A stretch of DNA of 64,000 nt from Anas platyrhynchos (lineage: Eukaryota > Chordata > Aves > Anseriformes > Anatidae), in the NCBI RefSeq assembly GCF_047663525.1, contig NC_092602.1, positions 7,065,501 to 7,129,500 on the forward strand, in the 5' to 3' direction. The notes beneath the pieces were generated by a model that ran no database searches, had not been told where the DNA came from, and worked only from the letters and a program-made list of their open reading frames with translations. A program made the translations under genes and the position numbers. Shown in pieces: positions 26,185-35,776 of this stretch; the first letter of the stretch is position 1, and each line of letters begins with the position of its first letter.

Positions 26185-26642
26185 TATCGAACCCAAACCC
26201 GGTCACTCACCTCCTCTTTTGCCACGGGGCTGTCCTGGTGCCTGCCCCAGCCTCCCAGCACCCCCCTTTATGGGAAGGGCCCCCCAGAGCGAGAGCAGCC
26301 CCCCCAGGGAAGCACCCCACGGGGCACAGCGCTCATTTTTGGGGTTGGGGACAGAGCCCTCTGATCCTGGGCACGGCGGCACAGCGGGGGCACAGCCCCA
26401 TACGCAGCGTGGGGCACCCCACGGGACGGCAATGAGCAGCGAGAGAAGCAGGGGGAGAAAAATATAGGGGACAGGGGACAGGGCAGAGCCGGTCCCCCCC
26501 CCATGCGCCCCCCAAAGCCAGCCCTAGTGAGAAGGAAGAGCCAGCAGCTGATGCGCCGCGGAGTTTGCCCCCCCAAAAAAAGGCTCTGGACAGACGGACG
26601 CGGATGGACGAGCGGCCACCACGTGCCGGGGTCGCTCTGGGC

Positions 26643-29600
26643 TCAGTCCCAGCGGACCTTGACGGGGGGGAACTTCCAGAGGTCGGGGTGCCCCATGTGC
26701 AGCAGGTGGCTGCAGGGGGACGTGCTCCAGCGGAAGGGGGGCACGTCGTCCCACGCCGGGCCGCTGGCGGCCACCAGCCCGAAGGTGGAGGCCATGCCGA
26801 AGGAGGTGACCTGGTGCCAGGAGGGAAAAAAGGAGAAATAAGAGGGTTGTGTGGGGTCCCGGGGGGGATTTGGGAGGGATAGGGGAGTCCCCACCTTCAT
26901 GTCGGTGCCGCCGTGGCAGCGCTGGCGCAGGGCGGCGAAGGGGTAGGTGCCGTTGGAGGGGTTGAGGTCGGAGCGGGCGGAGATGGCGTTCTCGGCGTTC
27001 TGGGGGGGGTCACAGCCCCGGCACCGTGACAGTGGGTCCTGCAGGTAGTTGTTGGACCTGGAAAGGGGGGGAAATTAAATAATTAGATCACTGAGAGCAC
27101 GGCCGCAAAGGCTGGGGGTCCGCGGGGAGGCGGAGGCGACACCCAGGAGGGGGTTTTTGGGGGCGGGGGGCAGCCCCCACCTCATCAGGCGGACCATGGA
27201 GTCCACGTCGTGGACCTGCGAGTGGTTCCTGCGGAAGATTTGGGCGCGCGGGTTCTTGTCGTAGGTGAACCAGTCGCCGTACTGCTTCACCAGCTCCAGG
27301 TTCCCGCTGGCGTTGAAGATCTCCTCGAAGTACCTGGGGGGTGGGGAGGCAGCGGGTGAGGGCGGCACCAACAGCCCCCCCTTTTTTATTATTAAATGGC
27401 ATCAGTGGGACACCGATCGGGGTGGAGACGAGCAGAGACGAGGCTGGAGGGAGCTTACGGCACATTGTAGCTGGCCCAGTATCCCTGCTGGTACAGCACC
27501 TCTGTCTTATCAGCCACCATCACCAAGCCCCTGCGGCAGGAGGAAGGACACCGGTCAGAGCAGAAGGCAAAATAAAAGGGGGACGGGAGGGACAGACCCA
27601 CCTGGGGGTCCCCACCCCATCCGGGGGCCGTCACCTGCATGCAGAGAGCCACCAGCTGTCACACCCGTGCCAGAAGGGCCACCGCAGTGGGAGGCAGCGT
27701 GCCACCGAGCCCGCGTTTCGCACCCAGGCCATCAAACAAATCCCACCTGGGCCACGCTGGGACAGCCCGCAGGCTGTACAGCCAGGATTTTAGGGCTCCG
27801 AGGGGCCAAGCTGGCTTTTGGGGAGGGCGAGGGGCACTCACGGGATCTGCTCCAGCACCGTCAGCACGCCTGGCTGGGGGCCAGCCTTCCCCGGGGAGAA
27901 GGCTTTGTAATCCACCACCATCCACTGGTTGTTGTACCTGCACGGGGAGGTGACCGCGTCCCTCGGGGTCACCCAGAGCGCGCCCCGGGGGTGTCCCCAT
28001 GGGGTGTCCCCCCTCCGTGCTCACGTGCCGCTGTTGAACTGGGTGAAGATGGTGGCCCACTCGGCGCCGCTGCGGGCCAGCCGGTTGGCCACGATGTTCC
28101 TCAGCCACTCCAGGACGCTGCCCTGCGGCCGCAGGTACTTCCAGAGCGCCGCGTTGCTGTTGCCGATGGTGGTCTCCAGAGCTACCTGCGGGGAGGGGAA
28201 GGGGAAACTGGGGGGTGAGCTGGGTTGGGGGGTGCCACCGGGGGGTCCCGCAGGAGCCAGGTGCCACCCACCAGCCCACTGCTCAGGATGTAGAAGTCGT
28301 CTCCGGAGAAGATGGTGCCGGGGTAGGAGGAAAACACTTGGATGCTCCCCGGGATCTGAGCAGAGCCTGGAGAGGGGGGCGAGAACGGGGTCGGGGGAGT
28401 CAGGATTTGGGGAGAAAGGGGGGAAAAGGTGTGCCCCCTCCCCATCCTGCCCACATACCACCAGGCGCCACGCGGAAGGGCAGCGTGTACTTCTTGACGA
28501 TGCGCAGCATGGTCTGGTAGGGGGCCCAGGTGTCGTGGGCCACCAGCAGGTCCCGCTGGCCCGGCAGCAGCTTGAGAAGCGCCGAGCAGGAGCCGGAGCC
28601 CAGCGGGCGCCGCGGGGCCGATCTGTTCAGGGCCTGCTCCAGGTCCTCCAGGTCCCCCCCCAGCTGCAGGAGGCTGCGGGGAGGCGAGGAGGCGGCGTGG
28701 GGCACCCCACGTGGGGAACCCAGCCCCAAGACGTCCCCCGGCAGCCCCCAGCCCCGATTTTTTGGGGGACAGAGCTCACAGGAAGCCAAAAGGCGACAGG
28801 GAGAGGCTGCCGGTGGGGAAGGCCACGCGCCCGTTGTAGCTGTCCTCCAGGCCCTTCAGCTGCAGCAGCGCCAGGCGCACCTGTGGGAACGAGGAAAAAT
28901 GAACCAAAACCCAACATTCTGCACCCAAACTGGTGGTGGGGACACCGAGGGGCACGGCCTCACCTGGTGCCAGTACTCGGGGTGCTGGCCGGACGCCATC
29001 TGCTCCTCCATCCAGGCCAGGTTGGCCTGCAGGTAGCCGCGGAGCTTCTCGCAGTAGGGGGTCTGGTAGCCGAAGGGCCCGCAGTAGCCCACCACCGTGT
29101 TCATCCAGTGCATGTAGATGAGCTGCGGGGCACGGCGCTGGCAGTGGGACGGGGACAGGGGGGTCCTGTCCACCGCCCCCCCCCCCCCCGCCACCACCGC
29201 CACCCCCCCGGTACCTGCTCGGTGACGGCGGCCTCGGCCAGCCCCGCGGCATAGGCCTGCAGGCTGTCATTGAACGAGGCGTTGGTGGCCAGCTCCAGGA
29301 AGGCCCAGCTGTGACAGCAGGGGGGGGATGGCTGGGAACGGTTCTCCCCGGGACCCCCCCGGTTCTCCCCGGGACCCCCCCAGTTCTCCCCAGGACCCCC
29401 CCAGTTCTCCTCCAGGTCCCTCCCAGTTCTCCCCAGGTCCCCCCTGTTCTCCACCAGTTCCCCCCAAGCTCTCCCCACGTCCCCCCAGTTCTCCCCCCTA
29501 TTCTGACCCAGTCCCCCCTGGTTCTCCTCCCCAGTATCCCCCCCAGCCCTCCCAGTCCTCTCCCTGGTTCTGCTCAGGATCCCCTTGCTTCACCCCCAGT

Positions 29601-30116
29601 TTCCCCCCAGCTCTCCCCAAGGTCCCCAAGTTTCCCTCCCCAGTTCTCCCCTGGGTCCCCCCACTTCTCCCCAGCCCCCCCAGTCCTCTGAGCCCCCCCA
29701 TTTCTCCCCATGTCCCACCCCACGTACCCCCTACCTCTCCCCCTTGACTCCCCCTATTCTGGGACTCCCTTACTCCCCCCAATTCCCCCCCAGCTCCCCC
29801 CTAGCTCCCTCCCATTCCCTCCCCAGCCCCCAATGCCTCCCAACGCCCCCCCCCCAGTTCTCCTGCTGCCCCCCAGCCCCCCCCCACCCCATCCCCACCC
29901 CACAGCCCGGCTGTGGTCGGTGAGCGCTGCCCAGGCGATGGCGTTGGGGTGGCGGCCGGGCAGGACCCGCAGCCGCCCGGAGCCGGGCTCCAGCAGCACG
30001 GAGGCGCCGCGGGCCGGGGGGGGCGGGACGGCGGCGGCGACCCCGACCCCAAACCCGACCCCAAGCCCGGGCAGGGCCAGGAGCAGCGCGGCCACCACCG
30101 CCCGCGGAGCCGCCAT
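26643..30116 (-). CDS. PLBD2: Phospholipase B domain containing 2, lysosomal (twelve coding exons, 564 aa)
   Basis: Coding exons on the minus strand, 5' to 3': 30116-29899, 29308-29215, 29122-28964, 28880-28780, 28673-28459, 28366-28272, 28185-28025, 27937-27842, 27530-27459, 27333-27181, 27057-26895 and 26810-26643 (TGA at 26645-26643). Phases close to 564 aa; human is 589, mostly because of a longer N-terminus. PLBD2 is a soluble lysosomal glycoprotein of the Ntn-hydrolase phospholipase B-like family; its substrate is not settled. Visible here: an Ala/Leu/Val-rich signal peptide (about residues 1-30), LIYMHWMN, FSSYPGTIFS, GDWFTYD, LGSGSCSAL with Cys220 as the expected autocleavage nucleophile, several N-glycosylation sequons (NAS, NDS, NRS, NHS, NGT) and the conserved ending DLWKFPPVKVRWD. 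The start has a strong context (GCCGCCATGG). The donor of intron 1 lies inside a GTGGGGTGGGG run; the second GT was chosen because it keeps phase and gives GWAFLEL. Confidence 0.95.
29330..29880. repeat. ~21-bp pyrimidine-rich minisatellite in PLBD2 intron 1
   Basis: Units of the form GGTTCTCCCCGGGACCCCCCC repeat from ~29,335 with growing decay to ~29,880. Because the unit is about a multiple of three, long apparent reading frames arise on both strands. It is intronic with respect to PLBD2. Confidence 0.75.
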
Positions 30117-31132: not shown

Positions 31133-31434
31133 GTGGGTCCGGGGGGGGGGGTCCCGGGGGGGTCCCCTTGTCCCCATATCCCCATATCCCCATATCCCTA
31201 TATCCCCGTGTCCCCAACCCGTCCCCAGCCCCGACCCCATCGCGGCCCCATTGGGACCCCCCCCACCCCGGCTTGGGGTCCCCGGTCGCGGTGCAGGGGG
31301 GGGGGGCGGTGTGGGGGGGTCTCCCCGTGCCCCCCCCTTACCCCCGGGTCCCCCCGCAGGGAGCCGGGCACGGGGCTGGCGGCCTCCCCTCGCTCCTAGC
31401 CCTGTTCTGCGCCCTGTGCCTGGTTTTACCCCTA

Positions 31435-32060
31435 TTTTAACCCCAATATCCCCATTTTTACCCTTATATCCCTATTTTTTACCCCTATGTCCCTATTTTA
31501 ACCCCTAAATCCCTATTTCTTATCCCTATATTCCTGTTTTTATCCCTATTTCCCTGTTTTTGCCCCTCTACCCCTACTTTTATCCCTATCTTTTATCCCG
31601 GTACCCCTACTTCTATCCCTGTACCCCTATTCTTACCCCCATACCCTTACTTTTATCCCTATAGCCCTAATTTATCCCAATATTCCTGTTTTTTATCCCT
31701 AGCTTTTAGTCCTGTACCCCTACTTTTATCCCTGTACCCCTAGCCTTACCCCTATACCCTTACTTTTAAACCTATACCCCTATTTTTTATCCTTATCTCT
31801 TATCCCTGCACCGTTTTTATCCCTATACTCCTATTTTGTGTCCCTTTTATCCCTATAACCCTACTTTTATTCCTATAACCCTCCTTTTATCGATATATCC
31901 CTATTTTATCCCTATATTTCTATTTTTATCCCTTTTGACCCTACACCCCTACTTGTATCCCTATACCCCAACTCTTATCCCTATACCCCTACTTTTTTTC
32001 CCCTATATTCCTATTTTTTACCCCTACTTTCACCCCTATACCCCAATTCTAACCCCTATA
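31435..32060. repeat. CCCTA/TTTTA-rich degenerate tandem array
   Basis: Irregular units such as CCCTATTTTTAT and CCCTACTTTTATC run for ~0.6 kb on the plus strand. CCCTA is frequent, but the exact telomeric hexamer CCCTAA is rare. The array occupies the inferred first intron or promoter of SLC8B1. Confidence 0.8.
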
Positions 32061-32176: not shown

Positions 32177-35100
32177 ATGGGGACACTGTGGGTGCTGAGC
32201 CTGGCCGGGGCGCTGAGCCTGGCCGGGGCGCTGGCGGGTGACAGCGGGGCACCACGAGCGGTGACACCGGCGGCGCTGGACACGGGGAGCACCAGGGAGG
32301 ACCCCATGGGACACGGACAGGGCCTGGACGTGAGTGGGGGCATGAAGGGGGGCGAGGAGGGAGATTTGGGTGCGGGGGGGGTCCTGTCCTTACACCCCTC
32401 ATCCGCTGTGTTATATGGGGAAACTGAGGCAGGGAGGGGATGCGGTACAGCAGCGCGGTGTCACCCACGGGGTGGGTGCTGCCTCTGGGGGGGGGACACA
32501 CACGGCCGGGGACCCCCGTGTGAGCCCCCCCGGCCCTGCCCCGCAGTGCAGGGAGGTGAGGAAGCACAACAGCTCCGAGTGGTGCCGCTTCGTGCGGGGC
32601 AACCCCGACTGCCAGCTGGAGGGCGGCTTCCTCGACTACCTCGGCGGCGTCTTCTGCGTCTTCCCCCCGGGGCTGCTGCCGCTGGCCGTCACCCTCTACG
32701 TAAGGACAGGGACCTGGGGGGCCGTGGGCTGTGCCCCCCATGCCTTGAGGCTGAGCCCTGTCCCCCCCCCCACAGGCCCTGTGGCTCCTCTACCTCTTCG
32801 TCATCCTCGGCGTGACAGCCGAGAAGTTGTGAGTACCCCGAGGGGACGAGGGGACGCCCCCCGAGCTGTGGTGGCCTCGGGTGGTCCCATCAAACGCCCC
32901 CCTGAGACCACCACCACCGCCTCCTTTGTGCCCTCGCAGCTTCTGCCCCAACCTCTCGGCCATCTCCACCAACCTGAAGCTGTCCCACAATGTGGCAGTA
33001 TCCTTGGGACGGGGACCTGGGGGGGGACACATACACACACATGGGGGGGGTCCGGGCCGTGATCCGGGGGCTGCTCCTTGACGGCTCCCCTCCATGGCGT
33101 CACCTTCCTGGCCTTCGGCAACGGGGCGCCCGACGTCTTCAGCGCCGTGGTGGCCTTCTCCGACCCACGGACAGCGGGGCTGGCTGTTGGGGCCGTCTTT
33201 GGTAAGGGTCCCCGTGATGGTGAGGGATGGTGGGGGGGGCCCGTGGGACACCCCCCAGCGCTCCCCTCACCCCGTTGTGTCGACAGGCGCCGGCATTTTT
33301 GTGACCACGGTGGTGGCCGGCGGCATCGCGCTGGTCAAGCCCTTCACGGCCGCCTCCAGGCCCTTCCTCAGGGACGCCATTTTCTACATGGTGGCCGTCT
33401 TCCTCACCTTCCTCGTCCTCTACCTGGGCCGCATCACACTGGGAGAGGCGCTGGGTGAGTGACGGCTGCTTGGGTGGCTTGAGCGTCCCCCAGGGGGGTC
33501 CATAACCCCTTCTCCTTGCCCCCCGCCAGGTTACCTGGGGCTCTACGTCTTCTACGTCTTCGCCGTGGTGCTCTGCACATGGATTCACCGCAGGCAGCGC
33601 GGGGATGGGCTGGCCCCCCCCGGACCCTGGGAGCCAGGTAAGGGCCGCCTTGTGGTGCCATCGGGACCCCCGTGTCCCCCCCTCACCACCCCCTTGCTCT
33701 TCCTCACCCCCCCCAGAGATGCCGACGGATGCTGAGGAGCGGGAGTCCTCGGGCACCAACAGTGGGGACTACGGTAGGTTGGGTTTTGGGGGCGGTTTGG
33801 GGCCATCTCTGCTAGGTCTTGGGGGGGTTCTGTGGTGTGGGGAGCCCCCCCCGGCACACTCAGTCCCCCAACCCCCGCAGGTGAGGAGTACCGGCCCCTG
33901 CTCCCCTACCACGAAACCTCCCTGCACATCCTCGCCAGCGCCCTCAGCCCCTTGGACCAGCGCAAGTGGAGGAGGAAGCCCTGGTACTGGCGGCTCTTCA
34001 AGGTCTTCAAGGTGAGGAGGACGGGGGGGACATGACGTGTGTCACCCCTGGGCTGGGACAGCGTGTTTGGGGACGGGTCACACCCGTGGGATGCCCCACA
34101 GGTCCCTGTGGAGCTGGTGCTGCTGCTCACCGTGCCCGTGGTGGACCCTGACAAGGACGACCTGAACTGGAAGAGACCCCTCAACTGCCTGCACATCGTC
34201 ACCAGCCCCCTGCTCTGCGTCCTCACCCTCAAGTCGGGTGCCTGTAAGAGCCCACGGTGATCCCAGGCTCCCCCCCGTGTCCCCCGAGGAGGGGACACGA
34301 CCGAGCTGGCCACAAAGCCCCAGGCCGGGTAGCTCCATGCTCCCTGTCCCCCATGGGGTCTCCCCCAGCAGGGTGGGGTAGAGGTGGCTTTAGGGACGAG
34401 GCTCAACCCCACACCACCCGCCTGGTGGGATCCTGCCCAGCCTGTGGGGCCGCATTGACATGTTCTCTCCCCACTGCGTGCAGATGGGTTGTACCAGATC
34501 CAGGGCATCTTCCCAGTCTGGGGACTGGTCATGCTGGTTGGCTCTGTCCTGGCCATCATCATCTTCCTCACCACGACTAACGAGGAGCCGCCCAAGTACC
34601 ACTGCGTAAGGTGTCCCCAGCCCCGAACGCACACCAGGGGCCGGAGCAGCTCTGCTGGGAGCTGTGGGACCTGAGCACCTTCCCGGTCCCTGGTGTCCCC
34701 AGGAGGGACACAGCTGGCCAAAAGGGATGCACCCAGTAGCCAGCTTCCCCTCCTCCTGCCAGGTGTTTGCCTTCCTCGGCTTCTTGGCCAGCGCCATGTG
34801 GATCAACGCCGCGGCCACGGAGCTGGTGAACATCCTGCGGACCCTGGGCATCATCTTCCAGCTGAGCAACACGGTGCTGGGCCTGACGCTGCTGGCCTGG
34901 GGCAACAGCATTGGGGGTAAGGGCTCCACAGTGCCCCAGTTGTGTGGCTGGAGCTGCCGGCAGCGAACATGGCCCACTGAACCCCAGCAGGGTGCAGGTG
35001 TCCTCCAGCATCTCCCCCTTCTCCCACCAGACACCTTCTCCGACCTCACCATGGCACGGCAGGGCTACCCCCGCATGGCCTTCTCCGCCTGCTTCGGGGG

Positions 35101-35776
35101 CATCATCTTCAGTATCCTTCGGGCACGCGGTGCTGGGGGTTTGGGTGCTGGGGGGACAGATCGGGGCTGTGCTGGGGCCAGTCCCTGTTCCTGGGGGACC
35201 TGGAGGTGGGCAGGATCCATCCTGGGATGAGGGTCAGGGCTGGTCCCTTGGGGTCTGCTCGAGGGAAGGATGGGAAGAGGCCGTGCGTCCCTGGGGAGCC
35301 TGGGACCAAGCTGAAGCCTCTTGTGTTTGAGGCTTGGGTAGCCTCAGAGGGGCTGGGAGGAAGGGGGACGGTGCTGTCCCCATCCCCGGGGCTGGAGGGG
35401 AAATTGCGTTGCTCCTCCGTCCTGAACCAGCCCCAGACATCCTGGTGGGCGTGGGACTGGGCTGCCTGCTGCAGATGACGAGCAGCCAGCTGGTGGTGAA
35501 GGTAAGGCTGATGGGCACAGCACGGGGAGGGGACCGGCCCCGCCAGGACCCCGCTGCCACCCAGAATCTCTCCGGCAGCTGGAGCCCGACAGCCTCCTGG
35601 TCTGGATCCTGGCCGGAGCCCTGGGGCTGAGCCTGGTCTTCTCCTTCGTGGCGGTGCCGGCGCAGTGCTTCCAGCTGGGCAAGGCGTACGGCGTCTGCCT
35701 CATCCTCTACTACCTGGCCTTCCTCTGTGTGGCCCTGCTGACTGAGTTCAGGGTGATCCGCCTGGCCACCGCCTGA
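32177..35776 (+). CDS. SLC8B1: Mitochondrial sodium/lithium/calcium exchanger NCLX (fifteen coding exons, 582 aa)
   Basis: Coding exons: 32177-32329, 32547-32699, 32776-32828, 32940-32997, 33096-33201, 33287-33454, 33530-33637, 33717-33773, 33881-34011, 34102-34243, 34484-34605, 34763-34916, 35031-35111, 35437-35501 and 35579-35776 (TGA at 35774-35776). Phases close to 582 aa; human is 584. NCLX extrudes Ca from the mitochondrial matrix in exchange for Na or Li across the inner membrane. The two alpha-repeats are clear: GNGAPD (exon 5) and GNSIGD (exons 12/13), each flanked by hydrophobic segments. FCPNLSAIST, VVDPDKDDLNWKRPLNCLH and GYPRMAFSACFGG are also family signatures. The N-terminus is a Leu/Ala-rich presequence (MGTLWVLSLAG). 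Introns 4 and 13 have U12-type donors (GTATCCTT); intron 4 appears to end in AT rather than AG. A polypyrimidine tract with AG just before the ATG suggests an upstream non-coding exon. The gene is head to head with PLBD2 and tail to tail with TPCN1. Confidence 0.95.

Follow-up and report, generated by a model that had tools for sequence, protein, structure and literature searches.

A candidate minor (U12-type) intron with GT-AT termini in a vertebrate SLC8B1 gene

U12-type splicing depends on U11/U12/U4atac/U6atac, and the introns removed in this way follow the consensus RTATCCTT at the 5′ splice site and TTCCTTRAC at the branch site. As far as the excerpts of the papers cited here and below go, U12 introns starting with G can be spliced to a 3′ G or T (PMC4176328), and GT-AT is listed among the human G-type minor introns (PMC8280824); in agreement with the initial annotation of this locus, GT-AT is thus a rare, already described subclass of U12 introns, of which intron 4 of SLC8B1, read as proposed below, is a new example. 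Non-canonical ends, most commonly AT-AA and AT-AT, occur in some 3.8% of the orthologous minor introns of animals (PMC10639083) and support U12-dependent splicing, often less efficiently (PMC3584512); the term GT-AT was not found in the excerpt of PMC7072748. With the human GT-AT minor introns (PMC8280824) intron 4 has in common an exact U12 donor, a U12-like branch site, a short distance from branch to end and, as predicted, the GT and AT ends; it differs from them in being located in SLC8B1 of one vertebrate and in having a junction inferred from the genome. The AT-AN (A-type) minor introns resemble intron 4 in tolerating a variable last base, AT-AT included (PMC8280824), but they begin with AT, whereas intron 4 begins with GT. 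A literature search of article texts found no paper treating SLC8B1/NCLX together with minor or U12-type introns, and a search for SLC24A6 together with U12 matched only a paper on thyroid cancer.

The window, i.e. the whole stretch of 64,000 nucleotides that was analysed, contains a gene model (Table 1) whose exons were positioned by hand and, when joined, yield a frame of 582 amino acid residues without interruption. Its product matches the NCLX chain 9ps1_B of the PDB over residues 50–579 (E 3.5e-255) and carries the Pfam domain PF01699 (Na_Ca_ex) in two stretches. The two Na_Ca_ex domains and the close NCLX match identify the gene as SLC8B1, in agreement with the initial annotation; the product of SLC8B1 is the mitochondrial sodium/calcium exchanger (NCLX). 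Exon 1 is less certain than the rest of the model because residues 1–49 fall outside the 9ps1_B match. The region 32900–33250 matches a single place in the assembly of 1.26 Gb and 42 contigs, which is the region itself. A search of prokaryote genomes with the 92-residue peptide of exons 5 and 6 returned 372 pattern stretches, ten of which encode a relative (all from Halorubrum, 37–39% identity) and are uninformative on a vertebrate intron. The same peptide gave 22 pattern stretches and no relative in viral contigs. Upstream of SLC8B1, coding-looking sequence was recognized by eye on the minus strand at 26600–30115, presumably the neighbouring gene PLBD2, and an extended tract of low complexity, also read by eye and made up of degenerate repeats similar to CCCTATTTTTAT, occupies 31400–32060 just 5′ of exon 1.

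Table 1. Features of the SLC8B1 locus discussed in the text (positions within the window).
Feature	Position	Strand	Remarks
SLC8B1/NCLX gene model	32177..35776	+	15 coding exons, 582-aa open frame
Exon 4	32940..32997	+	ends ...LSHNVA, phase 0
Intron 4, candidate U12-type, termini GT-AT	32998..33095	+	98 nt, phase 0
Putative U12-type 5′ splice site GTATCCTT	32998..33005	+	8/8 vs U12 consensus
Putative U12-type branch site CTCCTTGAC	33074..33082	+	1 mismatch to TTCCTTRAC
Non-canonical 3′ terminus AT, predicted	33094..33095	+	genomic sequence and protein frame
Exon 5	33096..33201	+	begins GVTFLAFGNGAPD
Intron 13, perfect U12 donor, GT-AG	35112..35436	+	GTATCCTT...GTCCTGAAC...AG

The donors of all 14 introns of the gene were scored against the U12 consensus (8 positions) and a U1-type consensus (9 positions). 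The donor of intron 4 agrees with the former at every position and with the latter at only three of nine, whereas 12 of the 14 donors, all belonging to GT-AG introns, match the U12 consensus at two to four positions (four to six mismatches) and the U1-type consensus at five to eight. Intron 4 is also the sole one of the 14 introns having a branch site with a single mismatch. Its core motif TCCTTGAC lies at 33075–33082, with the inferred branch-point adenosine at 33081, 14 nt before the last base of the intron; this short spacing is slightly past the optimum of 11–13 nt for U12 introns (PMC3584512). The last stretch of intron 4 has a pyrimidine fraction of 0.78, a value that falls between the extremes of the 12 U2-type introns of the gene (0.56–0.94); U12-type introns are described as being without a distinct polypyrimidine tract (PMC3584512), and this U2-like value may count against the U12 reading. 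It could mean that the major (U2) spliceosome removes intron 4 through a non-canonical AT acceptor, and the 14 annotated GT-AT introns of Drosophila are indeed given in a row separate from the U12 rows (PMC4528330, Table 3); all 14 of them, however, have a similar alternative splice, while intron 4 has no AG close by, and its donor falls below every U2-type donor of the gene in its match to U1. Removal by the major spliceosome is therefore regarded as extremely improbable. That intron 4 belongs to the G-type minor (U12-type) introns and has GT-AT ends is well supported, if unproven, and probable.

The position of the 3′ junction was examined by joining last exonic bases from 32970 to 33039 with next-exon starts at least 30 bases further on, up to 33159. 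Three of these junctions, with the termini GT-AT, TA-TG and AG-CA, restore LKLSHNVAGVTFLAFGNGAPDVFSA. The TA-TG junction is the GT-AT junction shifted by one base and gives an identical mRNA, the AG-CA junction uses a different alanine codon, and among the three only GT-AT begins with a splice-donor motif. Joining 32997 to 33096 rebuilds the conserved protein NVA-GVTFLAFGNGAPD, the second part of which, at the start of exon 5, we take to be the alpha-1 repeat; across this junction the joined protein of the window and the NCLX chain 9ps1_B are identical and without gaps (LKLSHNVAGVTFLAFGNGAPD). The predicted mRNA would accordingly connect AATGTGGCA directly to GGCGTCACC, as deduced from protein conservation. 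The claims of the initial annotation on these points, i.e. an exact minor-spliceosome donor at 32998, a branch-site motif with its adenosine 14 bases from the junction, an exon start at 33096 that would keep the frame and restore the alpha-1 repeat, and the lack of an AG between branch site and junction, were all reproduced.

Only two AG dinucleotides are present in 32998–33205, beginning at 33141 and 33173. Their presence downstream, together with the reduced efficiency often seen with non-canonical termini (PMC3584512), would fit a decayed 3′ splice site, the RNA using the AG ending at 33142 or at 33174, or an AC, or retaining intron 4. With the donor fixed, however, both AGs shift the frame, leading to stops at codons 257 and 154, respectively. 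Six AC acceptors occur between 33096 and the end of the exon, three of which shift the frame, including the nearest one (22 nt from the branch adenosine); the other three, at 41, 53 or 83 nt from it, keep the frame but remove all or part of GVTFLAFGNGAPD. Skipping of exon 5 breaks the frame as well. Retention of intron 4 brings in a TGA at codon 167 (33079–33081), and because this triplet overlaps the branch site, translation of a retained intron would end right there. The protein is conserved from residue 50 to residue 579, and a decayed site is considered very unlikely. As to the preferred 32997/33096 junction, Moyer 2020 (PMC7367187) cautions that in genomes like that of Gallus the boundaries of most annotated non-canonical U2-type introns are off by a few bases, but this warning concerns U2-type introns, and there is no AG within a few bases of the end of intron 4.

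Intron 4 ends in CTCCAT, with CCAT at 33092–33095, and is followed by GGCGTC from 33096. A single substitution at 33095 would give CCAG. Since AT is just one base away from the canonical AG, a sequence error, a private variant or a recent mutation would all look alike, and base 33095 is known from one assembly copy of an intron that contains two runs of eight G. The main rival explanation is consequently that AT represents an assembly error or a private or heterozygous variant, the true or common dinucleotide at 33094–33095 being AG (or AC) and the intron an ordinary U12 one. Against it, the last bases of the intron lie outside any homopolymer run, the frame of the SLC8B1 model is open throughout, GT-AT minor introns exist naturally (PMC8280824, PMC4176328), and termini classed as ‘Other’, comprising non-canonical combinations of all kinds, make up 3.4% of the U12 introns of Gallus (PMC7367187). 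On balance such an error or variant appears unlikely.

Concerning the machinery, the assembly contains at least one match to U12 snRNA, scoring 151.3 bits, above the family cut-off (44 of 100731 candidates scored), whereas none of the 14 control genomes was matched; an Rfam scan of the window gave no match at the gathering score. Inspection by eye suggests that the U12 snRNA element GTAAGGAA can pair with UCCUU of the intron 4 branch site and, beyond it, through G-U and C-G pairing, with adenosine 33081 bulged out. In the mechanism proposed for intron 4, U11 would recognize the donor GTATCCTT and U12 would pair with the branch region, thereby setting the branch adenosine at 33081; the second step would then act at CCAT|GGC, a permitted site at a suitable distance, the AT end presumably being accepted since the identity of the final base matters less to the minor spliceosome than donor, branch site and spacing. 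Bases 32997 and 33096 would in this way be joined in the RNA by the minor spliceosome, and the spliced product would encode an intact alpha-1 repeat.

A second perfect U12-type donor, absent from the initial annotation, was found in intron 13, which interrupts the second exchanger domain at FGGIIFN/ILVG, a site which we take to be the alpha-2 repeat. Intron 13 represents the majority GT-AG subtype of U12-type introns and has the donor octamer GTATCCTT in common with intron 4, but it differs from the latter in ending with AG and in having a weaker branch site, GTCCTGAAC, with two mismatches and its adenosine 10 nt from the end. Branch sites with two mismatches are reached also by introns 2, 6 and 7, so that the one of intron 13 is unremarkable and the assignment of this intron to the U12 type rests on its perfect donor. 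Although introns 4 and 13 interrupt the first and the second exchanger domain, respectively, their positions are not equivalent as judged by eye.

The AT end may have arisen from an ancestral AG by a transversion or from AC by a C-to-T change, one step in each case; in the latter, the change would have taken place at the CpG formed with the G of the next exon. If confirmed, intron 4 would be a natural addition to the rare GT-AT minor introns, without a nearby canonical AG as a fallback, and an experiment of nature on the extent to which a terminal AG can be replaced by donor, branch site and spacing. Within the core of the ion-binding repeat, automatic annotation could put an exon boundary in the wrong position. 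It is also conceivable, though rather unlikely, that the AT end is fixed lineage-wide as a constitutive GT-AT terminus and that inefficient splicing here, along with the second minor intron, could restrict the output of the mitochondrial Na+/Ca2+ exchanger via the minor spliceosome, given that translation would end at the branch site itself whenever the splice fails.

The U12-like motif pattern alone lacks specificity. The window has three RTATCCTT sites (2.00 expected; three or more in 32 of 100 shuffles) and five TCCTTRAC sites (4.32 expected; five or more in 43 of 100). Genome-wide, the GT-AT pattern with a gap of 50–80 nt gave eight matches and its reversed control 18; for the GT-AG pattern the numbers were 14 (two of them overlapping, hence 13 distinct places) and 16. 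With counts no higher than chance in the window and genome-wide, the evidence lies in where the motifs fall relative to exon ends: two of the three RTATCCTT sites in the window sit exactly at the ends of SLC8B1 coding exons. The flanks of seven of the eight GT-AT matches were inspected; one match was the window's own and the other six looked non-coding by eye. A scan of the window for a U12 donor with one mismatch, a branch site with one mismatch and an AG or AC end, which by its criteria excludes both SLC8B1 introns, gave 16 donor sites. Elsewhere in the assembly (G000), three near-identical GC-rich stretches of the form GTATCCTT...TGCTCCTTAAC with an AG end were observed at C2:159744693, C6:41580080 and C10:25080357, possibly representing a U12-type intron common to a duplicated gene family, or else a repeat.
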